Shown here: one piece after another, positions 16,626 through 57,151 of the stretch
Layout of the letters: each line of letters begins with the position of its first letter
Position numbering within the stretch: the stretch's first letter is position 1
NCBI GenBank assembly: GCA_902802265.1
Contig: CADCLN010000001.1
Coordinates: 140,864-204,863 of the forward strand
DNA length: 64,000 nucleotides
Source: an uncultured Bacteroidales bacterium
GTDB lineage: Bacteria; Bacteroidota; Bacteroidia; Bacteroidales; Bacteroidaceae
Reading direction: 5' to 3'
Made by a program: the position numbers and the translations under genes
Notes under the pieces: model-generated
What the model was told of the DNA's origin: nothing
Seen by the model: the letters and a program-made list of their open reading frames with translations, nothing else
Database searches by the model: none

Positions 16626-16849
16626 ATCTACAAAGAATTTGGTTCAACACAATTTTGCTGCAAATTACGTGCTTTTTTCTCAAATCTGTAGCAATTTTTG
16701 TTTCTAATTCTTTTCATTATGTTTCAATTTATATTTTTTCACACAATAACCCCCTTTTTGTCCCATAAAACAGCTTAGGCGGATGTAGCGTCACTCTGAA
16801 GGACGAAATCCGATGCACGAAGGAAGATAGATACATAATACACGCAGCG
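16626..16849. other. Gap upstream of xylB
   Basis: This A/T-rich leader carries the presumed xylB promoter region. No gene was recognised in it. The rest of the gap to nth (16850-17195) is described as repeat arrays and a promoter. Confidence 0.5.
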
Positions 16850-16994
16850 GGAAAGTTCTCCTACTGCCGGCGCACAGTTTTCCCACTCCAGTGGCACAGT
16901 TCTCTGACGGCAGTCGCAATGCAGTGCTACCCCAGCCGCACAGTTCTCCCACTTTGGCGGCAGAACTTTCCCACCGCGGTCAGAGAACTGTGCC
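16850..16994. repeat. 22-bp-phased tandem array, family 1
   Basis: Six full units of exactly 22 bp run in register (16850, 16872, 16894, 16916, 16938, 16960) and a partial seventh begins at 16982. The first 16 bases of a unit approximate GCACAGTTCTCCCACT, and the last 6 vary. Because 22 is not a multiple of 3, each unit is read in a different frame, so the minus-strand open frame through it (16775-17032) is not a repeat protein. Related units occur at 36386-36429. Confidence 0.8.
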
Positions 16995-17039
16995 AATGAG
17001 GTTTTACTACTATCACATGAACTCAAATACAATACTTGA

Positions 17040-17105
17040 CTGTTGAAACATCAAAACACGGCTCTTGTCGATTCATAACTGAACTCTTGGTAAATTCAGC
17101 CTCAA
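17040..17105. repeat. 22-bp-phased array, family 2, copy A
   Basis: Three adjacent 22-base units (17040, 17062, 17084) have starts CTGTTGAAACATCAAAAC, CTCTTGTCGATTCATAAC and CTCTTGGTAAATTC. They align unit by unit with arrays at 25776-25841 (minus strand), 36836-36901 and 53434-53499. Confidence 0.7.
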
Positions 17106-17844: not shown

Positions 17845-17956
17845 AACCACAGATTACACAGATTACTCTTTACACAGATTACACGAATCTCTTTTATAAA
17901 CAGTTTTTCCCAAAGCCCAGCGGGGGCTTTGGGAAAAACTGTGTAAAATCTGTGGT
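17845..17956. terminator. Nested inverted repeat and terminator between nth and the GH2 gene
   Basis: A perfect 19-bp stem (17900-17918 with 17924-17942, arm ACAGTTTTTCCCAAAGCCC, 5-base loop) lies inside an outer pair AACCACAGATTACACAG / CTGTGTAAAATCTGTGGT (17845-17861 with 17939-17956). The outer AACCACAGATT word is dispersed elsewhere (42025, 42084, 42355 inverted, 56051). The two flanking genes converge here. Confidence 0.75.
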
Positions 17957-25775: not shown

Positions 25776-25841
25776 TACATCATCGAATGAACAAGAGTTA
25801 AGTTTTGAATTGACAAGTGCCGTGTTTTGAATTGACAACAG
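25776..25841 (-). repeat. 22-bp-phased array, family 2, copy B
   Basis: Read on the minus strand, units of 22 bases start CTGTTGTCAATTCAAAAC (25841-25820), CACTTGTCAATTCAAAAC (25819-25798) and CTCTTGTTCATTCG (25797-25776). This is the cleanest copy of the family. Confidence 0.75.
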
Positions 25842-26116
25842 CAAAGTTTCGTCTTTTTAATCATGAAACGTTCACTTTTTATTTCATCATTTTTACATCA
25901 TCACAACTTCTTTTTCGGTGGCAGCAGAAAGGAGAGTGCTAACACACAGACACGAAAAAGCACAGCCGTGTCTCCTGCGAATAAGCGACTGAAGGGGTAT
26001 GCTCATTTCAATGAGCACAAGGCGTTTTTTTGCAAAAAACCATCAAAAGGAAGTATAAAAAGAGGGAAAAGATGCGATTTTAGGAAAACAGAATGGGCTG
26101 AATGAAAGTTTTTTGG

Positions 26117-36798: not shown

Positions 36799-36835
36799 TG
36801 TCCTACCCTTTATCTATAGTGATGACGAAACCTTG

Positions 36836-36901
36836 CTGTTGTCAAATCGGAACACAGCACTTATCGTTTCAGAACTTAACTCCTGTTTAATCGGTTATTT
36901 A
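36836..36901 (+). repeat. 22-bp-phased array, family 2, copy C
   Basis: Units of 22 bases begin at 36836 (CTGTTGTCAAATCGGAAC), 36858 (CACTTATCGTTTCAGAAC) and 36880 (CTCCTGTTTAATCGG). Order and spacing match copy B. Confidence 0.7.
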
Positions 36902-53349: not shown

Positions 53350-53433
53350 GAAATACTTAACCTTCCCTTTCTATTGCTGCTGCACTCAAGCACATATTTT
53401 ACATTTATTTCGTATCCAAAGTTCAAGACTGGG
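53350..53433. other. Gap after the frameshifted protein
   Basis: Nothing was recognised in this first part of the 504-base gap; the remainder holds a repeat array, a possible small transcript and the DUF4153 promoter. Confidence 0.4.
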
Positions 53434-53626
53434 CACTTGTCAATTCAAAACACAGCTGTTGAATATTCAAAACTTCACTCCTGTTCAATCGGTATTGATC
53501 CACCATGAATTCTAAACTTAATGACTGTGTGCTCTAAACTTAAAACAACGCCGCTGTTTTCAGAAACAACGGCGTTGTTTTTATAAACATCGGGCTTGTT
53601 TCTGAAAACATCGGCGTTGTTTTAAC
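53434..53626 (+). repeat. Composite 22-bp then 21-bp phased tandem array, family 2 copy D
   Basis: Five 22-base units (starts 53434, 53456, 53478, 53500, 53522) begin with CACTTGTCAATTCAAAAC, CTGTTGAATATTCAAAAC, CTCCTGTTCAATCGG, CCACCATGAATTCTAAAC and TGACTGTGTGCTCTAAAC. They run straight into four 21-base units (53543, 53564, 53585, 53606) of the form AAACAWCGGCGTTGTTTT. The first units match copies A-C; the 21-base units are seen only here. Confidence 0.8.
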
Positions 53627-53724
53627 TTTGTATCGCAGTCACACAAACTTTTTTCCTGTGACTGCACGAAAAAAGAATCGTCATGCGGCAGATTGATATT
53701 CCTGTCAGACCGTTATGGAAATAA
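53623..53724 (+). other. Possible small transcript with hairpin and 13-codon ORF
   Basis: A TAACTTTG box (53623-53630) at the end of the array is followed by a perfect 9-bp hairpin (GCAGTCACA 53635-53643 / TGTGACTGC 53657-53665). A 13-codon frame MRQIDIPVRPLWK follows (53683-53724). The words CAGATTGATATTCCTGTCAG here and CAGATTGATATTTCTGTCAG at the 3' end of the GH2 remnant (about 44758-44777) differ by one base, so this may be a copied gene end. Confidence 0.3.
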
Positions 53725-57027: not shown

Positions 57028-57142
57028 AAAGGGAAGTTAAAGGGAAGTTAAAGGGAAGTTAAAGGGAACGAATGGTAAATAGTAAATGGTAAATAGTAAA
57101 TAGTAAATAGTAAATGGTAAATAGTAAATGGTAAATAGTAAA
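57028..57142. repeat. Two adjacent short tandem repeats (11 bp and 7 bp)
   Basis: AAAGGGAAGTT occurs about 3.5 times (57028-57068) and is followed by ten heptamers TGGTAAA/TAGTAAA (57073-57142). They lie between the stops of two converging genes. The heptamers match those in the composite repeats at 9755, 41366 and 50446. Confidence 0.9.
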
Positions 57143-57151
57143 TAAAGTTGT

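Follow-up and report, generated by a model that had tools for sequence, protein, structure and literature searches.

Ordered 22-bp repeat units dispersed in the intergenic gaps of a Bacteroidales genome: a putative small mobile element

How did the same 22-base units, kept in the same order, come to stand in several intergenic gaps of one Bacteroidales genome? The question is raised by positions 25,776 to 25,841 of the window, as we call the whole stretch of 64,000 nucleotides that was analysed, and an earlier note had offered two answers, the spread of a small element or a genome-wide protein-binding and chromosome-structuring array. The observation itself is confirmed: three 22-nt units lie in register at 17040-17105 (+), 25776-25841 (-), 36836-36901 (+) and 53434-53499 (+). 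The unit words that the note had quoted proved to be approximate, being literal in only some units and not common to all four loci, while the unit order that it described held. Copy a, for instance, reads CTGTTGAAACATC / CTCTTGTCGATTC / CTCTTGGTAAATTC, and in copy d the 5' words of units 1 and 2 are swapped (CACTTG, then CTGTTG) with the remainder of each unit in order. A 66-nt profile built from the four copies ranks the same four at the top within the window, partly by construction. In leave-one-out scoring copies a, c and d reach 31-41 against means near -25, and copy b, whose slice is offset by one base, reaches -19, an offset that blurs the other three tests too; the independent test of the family is the genome-wide profile search described below.

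Copy a is flanked by an FGGY-type kinase gene and an endonuclease-III-like gene, copy b by a rhamnogalacturonan-lyase-type gene and a gene for an AraC-type regulator, and copy c by an arabinofuranosidase-type gene with a MatE gene further on; a DUF4153 gene lies downstream of copy d (Table 1). The 22-bp array that adjoins copy a is of the GCACAGTTCTCC type. Elsewhere in the window we noticed a 25-nt inverted repeat at 17894-17948, 3' of the endonuclease-III-like gene, with arms 92% complementary and 5 nt between them, which looks like a strong terminator, and at 57028-57144 an 11-bp tandem repeat (AAAGGGAAGTT x3.7) followed directly by a 7-bp repeat (AATAGTA x10.6).

Table 1. Coordinates of the repeat features discussed in the text; the first six lie in the window.
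Feature	Position	Strand	Remarks
Family-2 copy a	17003..17097	+	Units at 17040, 17062, 17084; leader unrecognisable
Family-2 copy b	25784..25878	-	Units leftwards from 25841; top-scoring copy of the genome, E 1.6e-23
Family-2 copy c	36799..36893	+	Units at 36836, 36858, 36880; leader unrecognisable
Family-2 copy d	53397..53491	+	Leader TTTTACATTTATTTC at 53397-53411; units at 53434, 53456, 53478
Array of 22-bp units from a different family (GCACAGTTCTCCCAC type, units in both orientations)	16842..16998	.	Adjoins copy a
21-bp palindromic array (AAACAACGGCGTTGTTTT type)	53534..53630	.	Adjoins copy d
G019 23-bp-unit element	L214 6180-6350 and L213 14208-14350		

The whole-genome profile scan that the earlier note had proposed was done with a sequence-only model of nine copies and 88 nt, applied to 2.88 Mb in 63 contigs (85.65% complete). 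It returned 58 matches at E<=1, which fall into 44 clusters, three single matches with E 0.18-0.81 being left out, and the 44 copies were compared in register with the help of 40 fetched stretches that surround the clusters lying beyond the window. According to this comparison, the element of family 2, as we refer to these copies, is about 95-120 bp long and consists of a leader (TTTTACATnTATTAT), usually 3-4 units and a tail (CTGCTGTTAAATCG). The consensus of unit 1 is degenerate and ends in GACGAAACTTAG, later units are of the types CACTTGTCGATTCAAAACACGG and CACTTGTCGATTCAAAACTTAA, and the words AAAAC and CTTG are conserved; of the window copies, copy d alone has a leader that can be recognised. 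Column conservation spans about -15 to +80 of the model and ends in the flanks, as calculated for 35 of the 44 copies, with nine omitted as aberrant in frame or belonging to odd subfamilies. Unit number, judged by score, is 3-4 in 34 of the 44 copies and 1, 2, 5 or 6 in the rest; four copies form a subfamily whose leader lies about one unit further out, and the length of the element thus appears to vary by whole units. The unit is not palindromic (score 10 against shuffle means of 10.6-11.3). Repeats of 11 bp such as CACAGATTACA stand 3' of some copies (L071), and 95 identical bases that L054 and L062 have in common beside their family-2 copies, near the ends of contigs C50 and C12, are probably an assembly overlap.

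All 44 copies lie in gaps between genes, though about 85% of the fetched sequence is coding, as delimited by a simple home-made hexamer caller that may miss small genes; the gap-only placement about which the note had asked is thereby borne out. A preference for one class of gap did not appear: the 41 clusters that have a called gene on either side are distributed over 15 convergent, 17 co-directional and 9 divergent gaps, and about 11.6, 19.7 and 9.7 (28%, 48% and 24%) are expected from the gap lengths of the same stretches, which include the gaps picked for holding an element. Since the counts follow gap length, nothing points to a role as promoter or operator, and we dropped this candidate.

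The likeness of units between copies tells more about the history of the arrays. At matched unit positions mean identity between arrays is 0.73 and 0.70, at mismatched positions 0.57, and between units within one array 0.56 (29 of the 44 copies), so units of one array are no more alike than different-position units of other arrays, which argues that the arrays spread as wholes. The observed unit order of these 29 standard copies was reached in none of 2000 random swaps; 15 aberrant or subfamily copies were omitted from this test, and the profile, having set the frames, biases it somewhat towards this outcome. We conclude that the array came into being before it was dispersed.

Some copies are close enough to be compared over their whole length. 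L047, L049, L057 and L075 are 84-95% identical and lie in different gaps, and L076 and L081 agree at 91.5% over 118 bp with no further match in their 10-kb stretches. The latter two are bounded by TTTTAACA and TGTTAAA(A or T); in L076 the ends form an inverted repeat of 8 bp (TTTTAACA...TGTTAAAA), in L081 7 of the 8 positions pair, with one outer mismatch. Queries with end sequences found those of L076 again at L081 and partly at C20 and C11; no transposase with matching ends was met. Standard copies have weak terminal inverted repeats, TTTTACA versus TTTAACA, which become clear only in L076/L081. No target-site duplication was recognised by eye in the flanks of the copies examined. Over 95 ungapped columns mean pairwise identity is 0.54, aberrant copies included, and this divergence marks most copies as old or degenerate.

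Other likenesses extend beyond the element. L057 and L075 are alike over 351 bp, through an adjoining array of another repeat family (family 1), and so were not moved alone; L070 and L072 appear to be duplicated together with neighbouring genes, and L062 and L080 have a stretch of 271 bp in common. The stretches of the last two pairs were considered as a transposon or a larger parent element, and neither proved to be one. Family-1-like units also lie to the left of both L076 and L081. A separate repeat family is represented by a 28-base word (CCTGCGGAACGATTAAACGG...) at L080 4880-4908, which occurs at many places of G000, some about 97 bp apart on contig C8.

The range of family 2 is narrow. 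The scan of congeners that had been suggested gave a match at E<=1e-4 in none of 44 genomes (55-99% complete, stricter filters), and among 60 relatives there was one match only at E<=0.01 (E 0.0096). With laxer filters no clear match was obtained in the six nearest relatives, the lowest E there being 0.0095. No empty site of the element came to light; in one protein the nearest relative is 88% identical. An exact degenerate core word, searched in 84,980 species, was found in two Paenibacillus only, against a rough chance estimate of about 0.5, and was absent from the viral contigs searched; this word matches a minority of copies (15 of 180 loci, several being the same copy), and the species and viral collections may omit records of the window's own genome.

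With its structure, its dispersal, its placement in gaps only, its conserved unit order and its restriction to one genome among those searched, family 2 is most probably a short, non-coding, non-autonomous dispersed element of the MITE kind, whose body is a small 22-bp minisatellite. In general MITEs are described as non-coding, multi-copy, intergenic sequences of 50-1000 bp, and we found about 95-120 bp, 44 clusters and 44 of 44 copies in gaps. We suggest that the whole element would have been copied into many intergenic gaps of one species, mobilised in trans by a putative transposase or similar enzyme, and that copies may have survived where they are harmless; unit number varies, apparently one unit per step, and a host function is presumably absent. 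The spread of a small element, as proposed by the earlier note, is thus favoured by the 44 clusters, the kept array order, the close copies in different gaps and the failure of any congener to match at E<=1e-4, and its other suggestion, the protein-binding or chromosome-structuring array, gains no support, considering that there is no gap-class preference and no clear match in the six nearest relatives and that the unit is not palindromic.

The binding array deserves some further consideration, as a host protein that coats 22-bp-phased direct repeats, in a nucleoid or regulatory array whose copies are kept by selection, would account for the strict 22-bp phase (about two helical turns), for the conserved AAAAC and CTTG words and for the placement in gaps only. 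We regard it as unlikely: it leaves the restriction to one genome unexplained, the copies are poorly conserved, and the lack of gap-class bias and of a palindromic unit speaks against it as well. Moreover, other families of the same genome have the same period with other sequences, so that one protein reading one sequence could not serve all of them. Somewhat less probable still is the reading that the 22-bp units mark the ends of a larger transposon, where its transposase would bind them, with family 2 representing solo or internally deleted ends. Transposons of the Tn7 or Mu type have ends with several direct transposase-binding units plus a distinct terminus, which the direct units and terminus of family 2 may resemble, and 9 of the 44 family-2 copies have family-1 words at a distance of up to 450 bp, more than expected by chance from 21 of 327 control positions (p 0.004; the controls, three positions per gap, are not independent). 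Against this, no larger element with family-2 ends was met in the fetched stretches or by an end-containing query, and the units are enclosed by leader and tail rather than placed at one end.

A structured RNA or transcribed regulatory leader was also considered, and we hold it to be very improbable. Hairpins before the 5' T-run are slightly more stable than at control T-runs (one-sided p 0.02), and in co-directional gaps 12 copies run along the gene direction and 5 against it, which is not decisive; on the other side, the consensus fold of nine copies has only -0.6 kcal/mol, a double change is seen in 3 of 8 predicted pairs with a covariation term of -0.04, no Rfam family was found within the window at gathering scores, and both orientations relative to genes occur. 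Targeting of terminators was tried as a related candidate, the 5' T-run being terminator-like at several loci (30% of 43 below -8 kcal/mol versus 18% of 325 controls, p 0.02), and dropped because the effect is weak relative to the controls. That the copies are independent local tandem duplications, alike by chance, is scarcely credible: tandem repeats do occur in many gaps of this genome, but the E-values go down to 1.6e-23 (the training copies of the model being among the best) and the unit order is kept.

The preferred reading of family 2 as a MITE-like element gains a wider context from other repeats. Units of family 1, to which the array at 16842-16998 belongs, are also 22 bp long, have the form GTGGCA-(AAGTTCT or ATGCAGT)-GCCACYGCA and are dispersed in both orientations in G000, where a single query gave at least 46 matches with 40 of 71 candidates scored; the family is also present in G063 and was not found in G014, G007 or G019. 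Its main type (GTGGCAAAGTTCTGCCACTGCA) and second type (GTGGTAAAACTTTACCATTGCA) are related, and a related type, GTGGTA...TACCA, keeps the palindrome as if both arms had changed together. By unit comparison family 2 shows no relation to F1, F4 or F5 (p 0.12-0.89), F1 and F4 are related to each other, and the fifth family is not related to the main family-1 type or its relative. The 21-bp palindromic array of the window at 53534-53630 (AAACAACGGCGTTGTTTTTA) is found also at L185 and L198 of this genome and in the closest relative (L112 of G063).

Elements built to the plan of family 2 from other sequences are dispersed in two congeners, G001 and G019, and also favour its reading as MITE-like. 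That of G001, an unrelated palindromic element of 3x22 bp, has AAGCGCTT palindromes as well as a leader (GGGGCGTC) and a tail (TTTCAGCGCGGCAGGCGC) of its own, and is matched at 22 places including the query (L131 18260-18362). Its sister G067 has the element at 11 places, as well as in one orthologous gap with the first unit only; these counts were made by hand and omit duplicates on the opposite strand as well as matches beyond the array, and some G067 matches are 44-60 bp long. In that gap G067 retains the leader side and the first unit and then diverges, as would be compatible with gain or with loss, and a second orthologous-gap query had no counterpart in G001. The element of G019, with 23-bp units between a conserved leader and tail, has at least 40 places, the query among them, with 40 of 107 candidates scored. 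Among the 12 other full-length matches listed, 11 are 148 bp long, exactly one 23-bp unit fewer than the query of 171 bp, and one is 149 bp long, and in an aligned pair the difference is exactly one whole unit. Weaker matches to it occur in G068, G034 and G013, and none in G000.

The unit lengths of such arrays follow a pattern of their own. We scanned gaps for arrays with periods of 15-34, setting aside those explained by 2-12-bp repeats. In 400 kb of this genome, taken regardless of family 2, there are 16 arrays at 22, 7 at 21 and 2 at 23, and four other periods have one array each; the coding sequence of the scanned stretches contains no array at 22 or 23. Over the sampled genomes of the genus, the 91 longer-unit gap arrays comprise 16 at 21, 36 at 22, 23 at 23 and 16 others, that is, 75 of 91 at 21-23, and their units are mostly unrelated in sequence. 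Period 22 is found, with no array at 23, in the congeners G063 (6 arrays), G014 (2), G007 (3), G001 (3), G067 (4) and G033 (2), and period 23, with no array at 22, in G064 (3), G023 (3), G013 (5), G034 (1), G019 (3), G068 (5) and G025 (1). The arrays at 22 and 23 thus number 36:2 in the first group, including this genome, and 0:21 in the second (Fisher p 5e-14, for arrays that are not independent and groups named from the same counts), and the split was stable over four threshold settings. In a tree of one protein (an endonuclease-III homologue, 30 genomes) the two groups lie on opposite sides of one branch with support 100/99, and shuffles as low were 1 and 0 of 500, 16 of the 30 rows belonging to no group. 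No array at 22 or 23 was found in G026, G027, G028, G029, G008, G036, G018, G065 and G031, some of which were sampled thinly (20 kb). Among the short-period arrays set aside, G018 (23 side of the tree) contributes a 22-bp array made up of 11-bp repeats; from G028 (22 side) come one array at 22 and an AT-rich one at 23. Of five order-level genomes only G038 contributed, with one period-23 array and with matches at periods 33 and 34. At L195 of this genome (9373-9579 and 6743-6852) one family has 22- and 23-bp spacings of similar words side by side (AATTTGCGGAAT / CCGCTAATTATG). Palindromy, considered as a general property, was given up as such: it is clear in the 21-bp families (mean z 2.5, 16 arrays) and weaker at 22 and 23 (mean z about 1.0 and 0.95, 36 and 24 arrays), with 26 of 76 arrays at p<0.05.

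We may tentatively suggest that the repeat length itself is an inherited or enforced trait, 22 bp in one clade, 23 in the other, and 21 for mostly palindromic families in both, and, as a part of this reading that we put forward with equal reserve, that the dispersed elements of leader, units and tail obey the same number of the clade. If so, a molecular ruler would be implied, for instance an enzyme whose duplications have a fixed length or a filament on the DNA for which only one spacing is tolerable, and this ruler would have shifted by one base pair when the clades split. Less far-reaching would be a common descent of the families from one ancestral element, the sequence drifting and the period being kept; neighbouring species have families in common, though drifted, and this speaks for a period that is at least partly inherited. 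The lock of the period is the surprising part, as sequences turn over between species and the repeat length is fixed within a clade, and it poses a testable question: what holds a minisatellite at exactly 22 or 23 bp while its sequence is free? In practice such arrays may cause assembly breaks and may serve as strain markers.

Among known systems, REP sequences and BIMEs are short intergenic repeats present in many copies per genome, REPs being palindromes of 20-40 bp; family 2 is likewise short, intergenic and multi-copy, but its unit is not palindromic. In the open-access literature we found one repeat of the form of family 2, BrickBuilt, and did not find the clade-wide period pattern. BrickBuilt is a MITE of Porphyromonas gingivalis with a tandem minisatellite within a leader and a tail; it has 19 non-identical copies, is always intergenic and is limited to P. 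gingivalis and P. gulae (PMC4596501). Judged by analogy of plan, it is the nearest described thing in form to family 2: both are composed of leader, tandem units and tail, intergenic and restricted to species (PMC4596501). The differences are that its units have 23 nt and those of family 2 22 nt, that it has up to 22.8 units where family 2 usually has 3-4, and that it has IS5-like ends, GAGACC...GGTCTC (PMC4596501), in which family 2 is not enriched; with at most 2 mismatches, this pair occurs within about 250 bp at 5 of 44 family-2 loci and in 11 of 109 control windows. On account of unit length and ends, family 2 is therefore not filed as a member. MITE464/PgRS of P. gingivalis is, as described in the same source, likewise a MITE with an internal direct-repeat array, and its 41-nt units and IS5-like ends are unlike family 2 (PMC4596501). 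Tandem direct repeats of 22 and 23 nt are mentioned there as noted earlier in P. gingivalis W83 (PMC4596501), the same unit lengths as in this genus in another Bacteroidales genome, and this likeness, one of length alone, suggests that such lengths may reach beyond the genus studied here.
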